A stretch of 5,252 bases of DNA from Anaerolineaceae bacterium (GTDB lineage: Bacteria > Chloroflexota > Anaerolineae > Anaerolineales > Anaerolineaceae), in assembly GCA_028714615.1 (NCBI GenBank), contig JAQTMA010000278.1, forward strand, positions 1 to 5,252. The letters run 5' to 3'. Numbering within the stretch: the first letter of the stretch is position 1; each line of letters starts with the position of its first letter. Positions 165 through 5,252 of this stretch are shown piece by piece. Below the pieces are notes generated by a model. That model saw nothing but the letters and a program-made list of their open reading frames with translations, did not search any database and was not told where the DNA came from. The position numbers and the translations under genes are program-made.

Positions 165-188
165 GCCGATCATCGCAAAGCGATCGGC
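165..188. terminator. Hairpin spanning the stop codon of the C25 protease gene
   Basis: GCCGAT (165-170) pairs with ATCGGC (183-188), and inside it CGC (174-176) pairs with GCG (180-182), leaving a 3-base bulge (171-173) and a 3-base loop. The stem overlaps the last five codons and the TGA stop (170-172) of the minus-strand gene. Neither strand shows a T-tract after it, so Rho-independent termination is doubtful. Its position between convergent genes suggests a transcript-end structure, but it may be coincidental. Confidence 0.25.
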
Positions 189-3136
189 AAGAAGATAGTT
201 CCCAATTCCGGGGCAGGACTCATGGCGAGAGGTAGAGCAGGATCCCCGAACAGTTCGTACGTATCAATCAACGCGCGGTTCGAGCTCGAGTTGGCATACA
301 GGAAATACTTGGCCTGATTCGTAGCCCATCCCAGGCTGCCGGTGTGATCCCGGTAAATCGCCTGAAAAATTCCACGATCCAATAGTTCGTGGCCGGTAGA
401 CAATCCCAAGCCGGTAGGTGACCAGGTGGCGACTGCGCCGGCGCCGTTGGGAGCACGCACTATGCTTTCATCTAAAGACGAGGCATCTGTCGTTGGGGAA
501 GAAGGGTGGATGTAATACCCGGTCAGGCAGGTCATTGGGATAATAATCGGCAGATTCTGTTCGTTTGCTAAAAGAGGTATATCCGTCTTCTGAAAGAGTT
601 GATCCGTTGACCAGAAGGTGGTACTTGCATGGCCATTGTAGTGAATAATTCCTCGCCCCTGGTTCAACCCATCGAGGATGGCCTGGCGAGTAGCTCCGAG
701 ATCCGTATGGGTCACCTGGTCATACACCCTATCCACATGGCTGTTCCACGGATTCAAATAGCCGTCGATGATGGCATCCGAAAGAGCCGCGAAATCTCCA
801 GCGCTGGGGTCGAGCTTGTCTGCCACGAACATGACTTTGCGCGACCAATCCCCCGTCGCATGTTGGTCGTAGGATAATATCTTCGCAATCACGTTGCTGG
901 CTTCGCTCGCAGTTTTGACGGGTAACCGCCCGAGCGCCATGTCTGGCAGAATGTCGTCCCCGCTTACCGTTACATATCGATTGTCTGCTGCGGTTTCGCC
1001 CATCCAGGGGTCTACGTCAGCGAGAAATGGTGGAATGAAATTCGGCTCATCCCGTTTGGTGAAGTTCAGGAAATCGTAATTGCCGTCTCCAACCAGAAGG
1101 ACGTAGGCTGGAGCCGGACTCTCCCAATACTGGTACGCATAAGCCAGGAAATCGTGGATAGCCTGGGGGTCAAAGAGGCCATCACGAAATTCGTCGTACA
1201 CATCCATGACGTTGACCACTTTAACCCGGAATCCTTGGGCTGTACGATAATCCGCCAGCGGCTGGACCGCTTCCAAAAAATCGGGGTGGGTAAGGATGAT
1301 GCTATCCGCTCCGTTTTGGGTCGAATGTAGATCAGCGGGATGAGAAAGTACGGCGCTGGCTGGGCCGGGGATGTTCGCCAGGGAGGATGCCAGGTATTGG
1401 CTTCTGGCAGAGATGTGTTGTTGAAATTGGAGGGAATACTGGTCTCCGACAGGGGTAAATGTTAAATTGTTGATGTTCACGGGGTGGATAGGGTCAGTAA
1501 TATCCCACACCAATGAATCTTTCGTCAGCAAACCACGAAGCTCGTACTGCCACGTTCCGGGGTTGTCGCCTGAGAAGTAGGTCACAGAGCCATCAACCGA
1601 ATAGTCTTTGGCATACTCGATTTCGAACCAGTTGACCAGGACGGTCTCCTGGGTGATCCCCTCGGTTAGTGGGCATTCCACCAGGATGCTATTCTGACCT
1701 TCGATCAAGTAGGATTGGGGGAAATTCACAAGAAAGGTGAATTCCTCCTGGGCAGGCCAGGTATTTTCCGCAATCAGATGGCCATTGATGGAGACGTGCA
1801 CATGATGCATGGGGTTGGCGGAGTATCCCTTAAACAACCCTCTCATCTTCGCTGTGGCTGGCTGGTTTGACACGCGGGTCAGGTCAACCGGATAGGTCCG
1901 GGATGACTTCCCAGGTTGATAAACCGTATTCCAATACCACCGATCCTGGTTTACCCCACTCGGATAACCTGACAAATATATTGTATTCTCTTCGAAATGA
2001 ACCAGGCTCTGAAACGCAGATGGGGTATCCCCTGATCCCAGCCTACCATCCGCGGTGGTGATCCGCAAACCATTGGCGCCACCCCAGGTCAGCCAATACA
2101 CATTAGAAGTAATGTAACGCGAACCGTTCTTTTGTCCATAGAATATCAGATAATCGCCAGGGAGAAATTCATGTACGTTTTCACTTTTGACGTAAATAGC
2201 GATCTCGTTACCCTGGCTCGTCAGGCGCAAGGTTTGTGGGTCAATCCTGTCTACCGGGGCGCCCGCAGATTGCAGATCGGAATAGGTAATTCGCACCAGC
2301 CCATCCTGGATTACCTCAAGCTTTATTTCATGGGCTGCCTTCGGCTGGGCAGTAGCGATCGTCACCGCTTTGGTGCGCCAGCGGCGGGCATCATCGTAAT
2401 TGATCACCTGACTTTGGAGGATTGCTTCGTACATCCCTTCGTCGATTGGTTGAGACTGAGCAAACGTCGCTATCGGTGAAGAAAATTGCACCCGCACATG
2501 TAGCTTGGTATAGTAGCGAAGTTTCCGCGTGACGGGATTATACCGAAAAGGTTTCAGCAGCACCTGGGCTACTTGCTGGCTGCGGATCAAGCCAGTGGTA
2601 CCAAGCTCTGCCAGTGGGCCAGGGGGATAGAACTGGTTCTGTTGGTAGGCGCCAAGGTCCGCTTTTAGAATTTCTCCCTGGCTACCGATCTCACCGGTCG
2701 CCGAGCTATTCACCTTCAGTGTGGCGGACGGGCATATATCGAGGTCTTCGATCTCCTGAGGGGGACTTGATTCTATGATCGTCACCAACGTCTCTGAATC
2801 CGGTGGTTGCCCTACCAGGACCCCTTTGACCGGCAGAGCTGGCTCCCCTGCCTTACCGCTCAATCCCCAGCCAGGTATGCGCACCTGGTGGCAATCCCTA
2901 TCGCTGGTTCGAATAAGCTTGACCTGAAACTCAGGAAGATTGAGTTCGAGGGTTACACCCTGGGGGTCGGAAGATTGCAAGCGGACGTCAGTTCCTCCTG
3001 GCGAAGAAGAGGGGAGCTGGCTGGATGGTACGCCGAACAATAGAACCAGGGTGAAGGTGAAATTAACCCAACGGGCAGCAGACCGGTTGATCAATGCAGC
3101 CTTCCTCAATCCTCCCGAGAACATTTCAGGAATCAA
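170..3136 (-). CDS. Secreted gingipain-type cysteine protease (peptidase family C25) with propeptide
   Basis: A 988-residue exported protease. Residues about 11-45 form a signal peptide: a basic stretch (R11, K12, R18, R22) followed by the hydrophobic run 'FTFTLVLLFGV'. Residues about 60-260 resemble the C25 propeptide, including 'PFRYNPVTRKLRYY' (196-209). Residues about 270-590 are a beta-rich middle part that I cannot name. The C25 catalytic domain covers about 611-966, with the family landmarks 'LLVGDGNYDF' (680-689) and 'LGRLPV' (735-740). The catalytic His836 sits in 'YNGHAS' and Cys870 in 'MTCLTG', 34 residues apart and close to the spacing in gingipain R. The domain closes with 'LFGDPALPL'. 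The protein ends in 'IFLPIALR', with no type IX sorting domain. The start is TTG, directly abutting the TGA of the upstream gene, with GGAAG 9 bases before it. ATG at 3122-3124 has no ribosome site, whereas TTG at 3092-3094 has GAGGAAGG 5 bases before it and would give a shorter, more typical signal peptide. As last gene of the row it may mature the peptide outside the membrane, or be a separate secreted protease. Family assignment is strong; the role is inferred. Confidence 0.93.
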   Translation of the reverse strand: MIPEMFSGGLRKAALINRSAARWVNFTFTLVLLFGVPSSQLPSSSPGGTDVRLQSSDPQGVTLELNLPEFQVKLIRTSDRDCHQVRIPGWGLSGKAGEPALPVKGVLVGQPPDSETLVTIIESSPPQEIEDLDICPSATLKVNSSATGEIGSQGEILKADLGAYQQNQFYPPGPLAELGTTGLIRSQQVAQVLLKPFRYNPVTRKLRYYTKLHVRVQFSSPIATFAQSQPIDEGMYEAILQSQVINYDDARRWRTKAVTIATAQPKAAHEIKLEVIQDGLVRITYSDLQSAGAPVDRIDPQTLRLTSQGNEIAIYVKSENVHEFLPGDYLIFYGQKNGSRYITSNVYWLTWGGANGLRITTADGRLGSGDTPSAFQSLVHFEENTIYLSGYPSGVNQDRWYWNTVYQPGKSSRTYPVDLTRVSNQPATAKMRGLFKGYSANPMHHVHVSINGHLIAENTWPAQEEFTFLVNFPQSYLIEGQNSILVECPLTEGITQETVLVNWFEIEYAKDYSVDGSVTYFSGDNPGTWQYELRGLLTKDSLVWDITDPIHPVNINNLTFTPVGDQYSLQFQQHISARSQYLASSLANIPGPASAVLSHPADLHSTQNGADSIILTHPDFLEAVQPLADYRTAQGFRVKVVNVMDVYDEFRDGLFDPQAIHDFLAYAYQYWESPAPAYVLLVGDGNYDFLNFTKRDEPNFIPPFLADVDPWMGETAADNRYVTVSGDDILPDMALGRLPVKTASEASNVIAKILSYDQHATGDWSRKVMFVADKLDPSAGDFAALSDAIIDGYLNPWNSHVDRVYDQVTHTDLGATRQAILDGLNQGRGIIHYNGHASTTFWSTDQLFQKTDIPLLANEQNLPIIIPMTCLTGYYIHPSSPTTDASSLDESIVRAPNGAGAVATWSPTGLGLSTGHELLDRGIFQAIYRDHTGSLGWATNQAKYFLYANSSSNRALIDTYELFGDPALPLAMSPAPELGTIFLPIALR

Positions 3137-3589
3137 TCAAACCATCTTCCGCAGCCGCCTGAAGATCACCAGGAGAATCCTGCGTAACGGCGCCATGAAC
3201 AGCCATACCCTGACCAATAGTACCGTTCCGGTGTTGTTGATCGCAATGGGTTGGTTATCTCGTAATATCCTGTGGGCGCGCCCGACAATGTCGGAACTTG
3301 AAACAATACCATCCGGGCGGACCAATGCATCCCCTTGAACGATGTAAGCGCCATCCCGGATTGCAACCACCCGGTGAAGCACCAGCAGGTAGGGATGCAG
3401 CCGACAAAGAATTACATCCCCACAATCAAGCTCTTCTGGTTTGACCGGTTCGATTTCTACCAGGTCACCATCCAGGATAAACGGGCGCATGCTAGTTCCC
3501 AGCGCCTTGAAGCGTAAACCGTTTCCACTTTGCAGGATATCGGTTGCCAGTTTTTGGAAATCGATGGGGTCTACGAGGAGATCAGGCAT
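3137..3589 (-). CDS. S26-type signal-peptidase-like serine protease
   Basis: A 150-residue protein carrying the main S26 boxes. 'GTSMRPFILDGDLVEI' (31-46) holds the nucleophile Ser33. 'LVLHRVVAI' (69-77) has His72 where bacterial LepB has the general-base Lys, as in the ER/archaeal-type enzymes (Sec11). 'VQGDAL' (84-89) matches the conserved Gly-Asp box. It is much shorter than LepB and has no N-terminal membrane anchor: residues 1-25 look like a soluble helix. The only hydrophobic stretch is C-terminal (about 121-144), interrupted by Arg and followed by a basic end. The ATG start overlaps the end of the kinase gene by 19 bases and has no clear ribosome-binding site, suggesting translational coupling. 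Short S26/S24-like proteins of this kind are common beside HPr-kinase-like proteins in RiPP clusters (established context). Here it may cut the precursor's leader or process an exported partner (inference). A non-peptidase regulatory role is the main alternative. Confidence 0.85.
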   Translation of the reverse strand: MPDLLVDPIDFQKLATDILQSGNGLRFKALGTSMRPFILDGDLVEIEPVKPEELDCGDVILCRLHPYLLVLHRVVAIRDGAYIVQGDALVRPDGIVSSSDIVGRAHRILRDNQPIAINNTGTVLLVRVWLFMAPLRRILLVIFRRLRKMV

Positions 3590-4443
3590 TGTACGTAGTC
3601 CACAGCGCGTTGGTCAGGGGTGAAACCAAGCTCGTAACAGGGGATGGTGCTGCTCAGGTCTTCAAGGAACTCAAGCGTATTCGCCATCCCGTCACGATCC
3701 CAGAAGGGTAAGTAAGCTCGTGGCAATAATAAGGAAATAGCCTCCGCCGGCCGAAGAGGACGAGCGATATTCTCGCTGGCGTGTTGTAGAACGAAAAGCC
3801 GTTCTAGGGAAGCTGGTCCTGGCTTCGCAACTGTGTCTTTTCCATGCCAGGGTGTTCCATGAAGCCAAAAACAACCGTCCTGTTTCCGGACAGCAACCCG
3901 TTCATCACAGAATAAAGTTGCTCCAGCGTATCTCTTCCATAGAATTGCGGTTGTAGATTTACCTGCTCCGGATATCCCTGTAAAAATCAACCCTCGTCCT
4001 GTACTTGTCTGCAAGCCACAAGAATGGAGCATCACGCCGCAGTGTCTGGAGAGAAGCCAAACTGCCAATAAATGATCCAGGCCGGGGGGAAGTAATTCGA
4101 TTGAGCCATTTTCGTTTCTCTGTCCAAGGCCGACCGAAATGTATAATTCTCCACAGTCTCCATCTGGATTCAAGATAAGCGTATAGGTTCCATTGGTATG
4201 CCATTGGTCCGTAACAAAAAGGCGAATGGCTGTTTGTCGACCGACATGATAAGTGGACCAACTCGTTGATACAAAAACAGGATCGCCTAATTGGTCCTCG
4301 GGATAATCGGTGGGGTATACCGTTATACAAACTTCAGGAGAGCCGGTGATGAAAAAATCTCGGTGGAATAAGGCGGCCGGAAGAACCCATTCCGGCAAAT
4401 TGAAGTTAAATTCGACTTTTATCCCACCCAGTGAAAGGATCAC
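3571..4443 (-). CDS. HPr-kinase-like P-loop kinase of RiPP clusters
   Basis: A 290-residue, apparently full-length protein. The N-terminal half (about 1-125) is a beta-rich domain of unknown role beginning with the family-like 'GGIKVEFNFNLPEW'. The kinase core follows: 'LHSCGL' (139-144), a Walker A loop 'GISGAGKST' (156-164, bases 3952-3978) with Lys162, 'CDERVAVR' (179-186) with the acidic pair Asp180/Glu181 where the Mg-binding residues lie, 'HGTPWHGK' (195-202), and 'LPFWDRDG' and 'IPCYELGF' near the C-terminus. These signatures belong to HPr-kinase-related proteins found in peptide-maturation clusters, frequently labelled PEP carboxykinase in databases. Relatives in lasso-peptide clusters (PadeK, ThcoK) phosphorylate the C-terminal Ser of the precursor. 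No HPr is visible here, so the precursor at 4487-4678 is the natural candidate substrate (inference). The start is GTG at 4441-4443 with no good ribosome site; the in-frame stop TAA at 4474-4476 limits extension. It begins 43 bases after the precursor gene. Confidence 0.85.
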   Translation of the reverse strand: MILSLGGIKVEFNFNLPEWVLPAALFHRDFFITGSPEVCITVYPTDYPEDQLGDPVFVSTSWSTYHVGRQTAIRLFVTDQWHTNGTYTLILNPDGDCGELYISVGLGQRNENGSIELLPPGLDHLLAVWLLSRHCGVMLHSCGLQTSTGRGLIFTGISGAGKSTTAILWKRYAGATLFCDERVAVRKQDGCFWLHGTPWHGKDTVAKPGPASLERLFVLQHASENIARPLRPAEAISLLLPRAYLPFWDRDGMANTLEFLEDLSSTIPCYELGFTPDQRAVDYVQCLISS

Positions 4444-4486
4444 ATTGTACGCTCGTTTGAGAGCTTCGATGAGTTAATGGTTTGCG

Positions 4487-4678
4487 TCAAACATTACATG
4501 TCGTACCGTCGATCTGGCAACCATTAAGGAGGGCTCCCGTGCCGGTAGATCCGGTCAAGCAAATCAGGAGAACGGTTTGTTTGGGTAATAACCCTACAAT
4601 CTCTACATGGGGTTTTTCATAAGGTCGGCGATCTCCTCGGGTATGGTTTTCTTTAGCTTCTCGCTCTGTTCGGTCCAT
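4487..4678 (-). CDS. Candidate RiPP precursor peptide (63 aa) with lasso-type leader motif
   Basis: A 63-residue peptide between a radical SAM/SPASM enzyme and a RiPP-type kinase. Residues 1-27 are strongly charged (Asp, Arg, Glu, Lys, His), as in a leader. Residues 36-63 carry a single charge (Asp57) and are rich in Gly, Thr, Leu and Cys, as in a core. At 20-35 (bases 4574-4621) Tyr20, Pro23, Val25, Gly29 and Thr35 fit Y-x-x-P-x-L-x-x-x-G-x5-T with Val for Leu. This is the leader motif that PqqD-like recognition proteins bind in lasso-peptide systems. The tail holds 'LTGSTGTGALLNG' (41-53) and Cys40, Cys54 and Cys61; the last seven residues are 'GTTCNV' preceded by Asp57. The core lacks Asp/Glu at positions 7-9 after Thr35-Val36, so lasso ring closure is not expected. 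Crosslinking through Cys by the adjacent radical SAM enzyme is a plausible alternative (inference). A perfect AAGGAGG sits 8 bases before the ATG, the best ribosome site in the row, as expected for a highly translated precursor. I do not recognise a named family. Confidence 0.8.
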   Translation of the reverse strand: MDRTEREAKENHTRGDRRPYEKPHVEIVGLLPKQTVLLICLTGSTGTGALLNGCQIDGTTCNV

Positions 4679-4686
4679 TTCGAAAT

Positions 4687-4693
4687 CCTCCTT
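4687..4693 (-). promoter_or_regulatory. Strong Shine-Dalgarno site of the precursor gene
   Basis: On the minus strand this reads AAGGAGG, 8 bases before the ATG at 4676-4678. It lies in the 30-base gap after the radical SAM gene. It fixes the precursor start and is clearly stronger than anything before the GTG of the kinase, the ATG of the S26 protease or the TTG of the C25 protease, so the precursor is probably translated at a higher rate than its neighbours. Confidence 0.85.
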
Positions 4694-4708
4694 ATCAAGG
4701 CTTGCTGA

Positions 4709-5252
4709 TCAATTATCGGTTATACGGAAAGCAGCCGCTCTCAAGTGGCCAACCCTGCAAAAGTATTCAATCGGCTGGTCCATCTGCCCCCCCTCAAGCA
4801 CAGCTTTCCCCGGGCATTGACCACAAAAATCCATCAAACGACAGGTAACGCACCGGCTATTCTCGGCAGCAGGCTGGTTAACCACCTTTGATTGGAACAT
4901 TTCCCAACCATGTGCAAAGGAATTCCTGCGGATGTCATAGCTTTGTGATCGAGATAACAGACAAGGGCTAAGCTGGCCGTAGGGATCAATATGGAAGGTA
5001 TTTTTCCCTGCCCCGCACAGATAAAGCGAGGTATGGTCCGCCGGCCGCGCATCAGCTTGTTTTAGCAAGTCTCGCCATTCCTCCCGCCGGGCTGGGTCGG
5101 ACATATCGACTTGCACCACTTCTTCCGGTGATAGCCGTTGTGCGAACAATTCCTGGTTTCCATCCAGGCCGCCTACCAGCAAGGGGTCGTAACGAAAGCC
5201 AACCCCCCGGCTCTCCGCAAATCCTTTCATCGCTTCCACTTCGCGGCGATTC
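4709..5252 (-). CDS. Radical SAM/SPASM peptide-maturase, C-terminal part (5' end outside window)
   Basis: The frame is open to the window edge, reading 'NRREVEAMKGFAE' at the margin, so the GTG at 5237-5239 is not taken as a start and the gene is partial; about 180 codons are visible. Residue numbers below count from that GTG codon. The seven cysteines of a SPASM domain are all present (bases 4757-5017): C75-x12-G88-x4-C93, including 'IDPYGQLSPC', then C130-x2-C133-x5-C139-x2-C142 ('CVTCRLMDFCGQCPG'), then C161 in 'EYFCRVGH'. SPASM domains bind auxiliary iron-sulfur clusters in radical SAM enzymes that modify peptides, such as sactipeptide, ranthipeptide, PqqE and mycofactocin maturases. The radical SAM barrel with its CxxxCxxC motif should lie beyond 5252 and is not seen. 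The stop is TGA at 4709-4711, 30 bases before the precursor start, so precursor and enzyme are almost certainly partners. The reaction (thioether, C-C bond or other) cannot be told from this part. Confidence 0.9.
   Translation of the reverse strand, partial: NRREVEAMKGFAESRGVGFRYDPLLVGGLDGNQELFAQRLSPEEVVQVDMSDPARREEWRDLLKQADARPADHTSLYLCGAGKNTFHIDPYGQLSPCLLSRSQSYDIRRNSFAHGWEMFQSKVVNQPAAENSRCVTCRLMDFCGQCPGKAVLEGGQMDQPIEYFCRVGHLRAAAFRITDN

Follow-up and report, generated by a model that had tools for sequence, protein, structure and literature searches.

A candidate RiPP operon in an Anaerolineaceae contig combines a radical SAM/SPASM enzyme with an HprK-fold kinase and an archaeal-type S26 peptidase

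Linear polyphosphorylated peptides (LPPs), represented by lppAKBSDN of Paenibacillus alginolyticus, have a pathway that includes an RRE, an HprK-like kinase, a SpI, an NTP-transferase and an MsbA-like transporter, according to the available passages of PMC13381572. The leader consensus given there is YxxPxVLxHQxIxFETxxS; the SpI-like LppS, helped by the RRE, cuts the leader after T-1, and LppK phosphorylates core Ser3, with Thr or Tyr not accepted in its place. The same passages call LPPs restricted to Bacillota, describe HprK kinases as typical of paeninodin-like lasso clusters, report that Bacillota lasso leaders are mostly WxxP and not YxxP, and give [Y/W]xxPx[L/V/I/A/F/Y] as the RRE consensus (PMC13381572). 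YxxP is described as a lasso recognition motif in excerpts among PMC10352776 and PMC12710340. We found no paper in the open literature that joins SPASM with an HPr kinase, or that links HprK, radical SAM and RiPP; HPr kinase and radical SAM are both mentioned in PMC4289311, where the available passage on the kinase concerns lasso clusters.

The window analyzed here is the whole 5,252-nucleotide stretch from an Anaerolineaceae bacterium. Its minus strand encodes, in transcription order, the C-terminal half of a radical SAM/SPASM enzyme (180 aa, 4709..5251, truncated by the contig end), a 63-aa peptide that is a putative RiPP precursor (4487..4678), an HprK/PEPCK-fold kinase (290 aa, 3571..4443), an archaeal-type S26 signal peptidase-like protein (SpI; 3137..3589) and a 988-aa frame for a C25 (gingipain-family) cysteine protease with a C25 propeptide (170..3136). 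The first four genes are spaced by 30, 43 and -19 bases, the last value being the overlap of the S26 gene with the kinase gene, which confirms the four-gene row on one strand reported in a first-pass annotation of this DNA. The contents that it gave to the row, namely a SPASM maturase end, a small leader-core peptide with a good ribosome site, a P-loop HPr-kinase-like protein and an S26-like protease, were borne out by the searches and comparisons below. No match to an RRE, an NTP-transferase or an MsbA-like transporter or other exporter was detected among the five proteins of the row (Pfam, NCBIfam), with the contig ending inside the radical SAM gene. The window has no tRNA; promoter-like sites were below shuffles, and terminator-like sites were about 1 sd above them. 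At its far left, the plus-strand frame 3-131 is the apparent end of another protein, hydrophobic and running towards the C25 gene, and presumably resembles the end of a transporter permease.

In the 63-aa peptide (MDRTEREAKENHTRGDRRPYEKPHVEIVGLLPKQTVLLICLTGSTGTGALLNGCQIDGTTCNV), Y20, P23, V25, G29 and T35 stand at lasso-type leader spacing, forming what we take to be the G/T-containing leader pattern of lasso precursors. The proposed leader comprises residues 1-35, with YEKPHVEIVGLLPKQT at 20-35, and the proposed core residues 36-63, with cysteines C40, C54 and C61 and with S44 as the only serine of the peptide. From its residues, YEKPHVEIVGLLPKQT is predicted to be an RRE-binding leader of lasso/LPP type, its tyrosine and threonine being spaced as in LPP. 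To be read as counts for a pattern chosen after the peptide had been seen, the full leader pattern occurred in 26 of 200,000 shuffles of the peptide, Y/WxxPx-hydrophobic plus T at the same distance in 257/200,000, and the six-residue motif by itself in 2,315/200,000. Across all six frames of the window, the full pattern matched once, in the peptide, while the six-residue motif was found in 11 other places. Upstream sequence of the gene contains a strong ribosome site, the Shine-Dalgarno AAGGAGGA (4686..4693, minus strand). A protein search with the peptide returned only the window's own copy, and Pfam and NCBIfam gave no match up to E 1. Two tblastn matches of the peptide to plasmids, at E 6 under a GGDEF gene and at E 3 under a DUF1127 gene, were taken as chance. 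The identical peptide is listed on a 1243-base contig and not on the 5252-base one, perhaps because this place was assembled a second time.

The truncated enzyme at the contig end is the SPASM part (TIGR04085, E 1.5e-9, NCBIfam), and its conserved SPASM-region cysteines (residues 79, 97, 134, 137, 143, 146 and 165) are nearly invariant in an alignment of relatives (A2). A protein search with this fragment returned 22 proteins, i.e., the presumed continuation P0143 and 21 relatives with 38-57% identity; two plasmid records, from Macrococcoides and Actinomyces, matched at 24-32% identity. P0143 lies on a 2771-base contig and its last 42 residues are identical to residues 1-42 of the fragment; together they make 359 residues, and relatives looking full-length have 354-379 aa. 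Given this 42-residue overlap, on which the link rests, P0143 is most likely the missing half. It has CxxxCxxC as CNLRCGHC and matches PF04055 (E 9.1e-23). Taken with the SPASM part in the window, this presumed continuation makes a radical SAM core very probable, and the objection foreseen in the first-pass annotation, an upstream part lacking that core, very probably fails. No RRE/PqqD domain was detected by Pfam at E ≤ 0.01 in P0143, P0123, P0127 or P0135. Against NCBIfam, P0143 and five relatives matched (best 25 rows each) the heme-pathway models AhbD and NirJ2 as well as MftC, StsB, PqqE and others. Because the heme-pathway models match too, and all of these matches are far below cut-offs, a peptide substrate of the enzyme is unproven by HMMs.

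The kinase protein contains the P-loop GISGAGKST (residues 156-164) and conserved H140 and D180. In the alignment A1, none of the 30 rows varies at the P-loop glycines and lysine or at these two residues. Its identity to the HprK chains 1ko7 and 1kkl is 20%, and its NCBIfam matches are far below cut-offs. Comparison of the predicted model showed the fold of the HprK catalytic domain with its P-loop; the kinase activity is putative. As Foldseek E-values for PEPCK were paired with low TM-scores, the VIA-align 2 figures were used, with rmsd and length. The protein search with the kinase retrieved 726 proteins, with at least 119 relatives among the matches listed, and two plasmid records were also matched, one from Prevotella (L001) and one from Phocaeicola (L002).

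For the S26 protein, TIGR02228 (archaeal-type signal peptidase I) gave E 8.1e-12 and 45.3 bits, below the cut-off of 51.85, and by protein type we consider it a candidate leader peptidase of the archaeal SpI type. LppS has S29, H68 and D93 in the available text of PMC13381572, and the window's S33 and H72 are 39 residues apart, equal to S29/H68. LppS D93 is 25 residues past H68; here a serine takes that place, and D87 and D100 lie close by. S33, H72, D87 and D100 are invariant in a three-row alignment of this protein with two Bacteroidota proteins, and D87 and D100 are candidates for the third catalytic residue. The protein matched two records, from Phocaeicola and Haloarcula, and no solved structure matched it in a sequence search. 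A single-sequence model was set aside as poor (mean pLDDT 52.5).

Scans of genome contigs and viral contigs for the gene order yielded no confirmed locus, so the neighbors of relatives were deduced only from contigs equal in size. We compared the 21 radical SAM relatives (P0143 left out) with 119 kinase relatives among the matches listed, of 726. For 4 of the 21, the longest contig was exactly equal to that of a kinase relative (2538, 2114, 13443 and 26720 bases), compared with a mean of 0.21 matches in a length-jitter null that reached at least four in 4 of 100,000 trials; the other 17 had no equal-sized contig among the kinase matches listed. Since these four contigs are exactly equal in size, the radical SAM-kinase pairing seems to recur, and a recurrent pairing is made likely, with the shared contig deduced from size and not from names. 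On the 2114-base contig, proteins of 320 and 297 aa leave about 257 bases for everything else; the gap from radical SAM to kinase gene in the window is 265 bases, peptide gene included. The spare bases are compatible with a small gene there, without demonstrating one. In a tree of the 30 kinase rows, the window and the four radical-SAM-linked rows fell within one 12-row group (97/95), with no clade of their own. The radical-SAM-linked label, known for the window and the four linked rows, was not significantly clustered on this tree (4 changes; 105 of 500 shuffles as low).

Two Bacteroidota loci also show the kinase and S26 pair again, together with PqqD. In the Prevotella record (L001, 7653-9297, plus strand), an HprK-like kinase frame overlaps an S26-like frame, and a PqqD protein comes next. 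The Phocaeicola plasmid record (L002, 4529-8880) has, in a row, PqqD, NTP_transf_5, an ABC transporter (by reading), an HprK-like kinase relative and S26, and by its gene content is a probable LPP-like set in Bacteroidota. Reading by eye through the frames listed around these two modules revealed no radical SAM frame, and a PF07475 search of the two plasmid records was negative (0/2). A 38-aa frame 3.5 kb upstream of the Phocaeicola row (874-990, plus strand) contains YEAPKVEII, close to YEKPHVEIV of the window.

The C25 protease was clearly assigned to its family by PF01364 (E 1.9e-86), with the propeptide by PF08126 (E 1.6e-21). Its true start is likely the TTG at 3094, from which the N-terminus is signal-peptide-like as judged by eye, and the stretches NGHAS and TCLTG presumably hold the catalytic dyad. 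The score against the model of PorU, the type IX secretion sortase, stayed below the curated cut-off (NF033707, 259.9 bits versus 420), C25 family membership being clear. One unannotated phage-collection record matched at 22.6% identity. The C-terminal end (170-211, minus strand) reads PELGTIFLPIALR, which resembles a C-terminal ending found repeatedly on secreted proteins of some environmental bacteria. The protease is apparently secreted, and its link to the peptide rests on the gene order in this single window.

The gene row very probably makes a small modified peptide. We favor, at roughly 60%, a RiPP operon on the LPP pathway plan with a radical SAM enzyme added. From the genes, their order, the kinase fold and the leader motif, which are observed, we infer the chemical steps, the RRE and the role of the C25 protease as follows. 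The 63-aa precursor would be bound, through the YxxPxV of its leader, by a discrete RRE protein encoded outside the window. Its core would be altered by the radical SAM/SPASM enzyme, most probably at or from C40, C54 and C61 and, as the best guess, by thioether formation. Phosphate would be added to the core by the HprK-fold kinase, with S44 as the site to consider first, and the SpI-type S26 protease would cut after T35 to free a 28-residue core, followed by export. The apparently secreted C25 protease may carry out the last trimming outside the cell, or it may be the target of the peptide. The RiPP reading of the first-pass annotation is supported in part, by the very probable radical SAM core, the HprK fold, the RRE-type leader and the four equal-sized contigs, and is amended by the C25 protease that it had left out. 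It is possible, and we propose it only tentatively, that the locus represents a new RiPP class, in which a radical-SAM-modified cysteine core is combined with HprK-fold phosphorylation, RRE-assisted SpI-type release after threonine and a co-encoded gingipain-family protease as finisher or target.

The low identity of the kinase to HprK chains and its weak family scores, together with the missing LPP Ser3 site and the deeper position of S44 in the core, are also what would be expected if the peptide were radical-SAM-modified and released by S26 as leader peptidase while the kinase fold no longer phosphorylated it, serving another step or regulation instead. We consider this unlikely, given the invariance of the P-loop glycines and lysine, H140 and D180 over the 30 aligned rows and the phosphorylation of the core by the HprK-like kinase of LPP, as described in the accessible part of PMC13381572. 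Alternatively, the 63-aa frame may be no precursor at all and the operon may serve modification and export of the C25 protease, which S26 would process and the radical SAM enzyme would mature. This would account for the position of the large, propeptide-bearing C25 directly after S26 and for the lack of precursor relatives in our searches, but we give it a small chance, as the frame is preceded by a strong ribosome site and encodes an RRE-type leader seldom produced by shuffling, and the same S26 type is the RRE-assisted leader peptidase in LPP (accessible part of PMC13381572).

Lasso peptides have an acidic residue at core position 7-9, and after V36 cleavage these positions would be G43, S44 and T45, none acidic. 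A lasso or paeninodin-like cluster with its macrolactam cyclase and B2 protease beyond the contig end is highly improbable, even though the leader fits the lasso motif including its G and T and HprK kinases are typical of paeninodin-like clusters in the cited LPP text. No asparagine-synthetase or B2 match was detected among the row's five proteins (Pfam, NCBIfam), the contig ending inside the radical SAM gene, and the corresponding operon places are taken by the radical SAM enzyme and the S26 protease.

If the LPP-plan operon is real, the LPP kinase-plus-SpI module would be a portable cassette with a further use in radical SAM chemistry beyond the described LPP set, and doubly modified peptides would result. 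Radical SAM, YxxP peptide, HprK fold and archaeal-type S26 would then form a marker set for genome mining, and the connection of a RiPP to a gingipain-family protease would become testable.

Among described systems, paeninodin-type phosphorylated lasso peptides share the lasso-type leader motif and an HprK-like kinase with the window, whose row is without a cyclase or B2 protease match and whose core is without a ring-forming acid. Sacti- and ranthipeptides (maturases StsB, PapB and AlbA) are alike in having a radical SAM enzyme with SPASM and an adjoining cysteine-containing core, whereas the model scores of the window's enzyme are far below cut-offs; to our knowledge, a kinase and an S26 protease are not part of these classes. 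An LPP-type kinase and S26 combined with a radical SAM enzyme and an adjoining secreted protease is a set that we have not found described. LPP is closest, with an HprK-like kinase (here a fold and P-loop with putative activity), an archaeal-type S26 signal peptidase (here by protein type, with the leader cleavage role shown for LPP in the available passages of PMC13381572) and a short precursor with a YxxPxV leader and a threonine 15 residues past the tyrosine. The earlier statement that no described class could be named is superseded on these three counts. In contrast to LPP, the window leader fits only Y, P, V and T of the consensus and departs from it at L, H, Q, I, F, E and S; the third residue past T35 is L38 instead of Ser3; and the RRE, NTP-transferase and transporter are not visible in the window. 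Because most of the leader consensus and Ser3 are absent, and because a radical SAM/SPASM enzyme, three core cysteines and a downstream C25 protease are added, the set would work like the LPP pathway but is not filed as LPP. The Bacteroidota cassettes resemble the window in that an HprK-like kinase relative overlaps or adjoins an S26 gene, and differ in having PqqD and, in Phocaeicola, also NTP_transf_5 and an ABC transporter (by reading). These kinase, S26 and PqqD cassettes in Prevotella and Phocaeicola records suggest that the module is wider than Bacillota.
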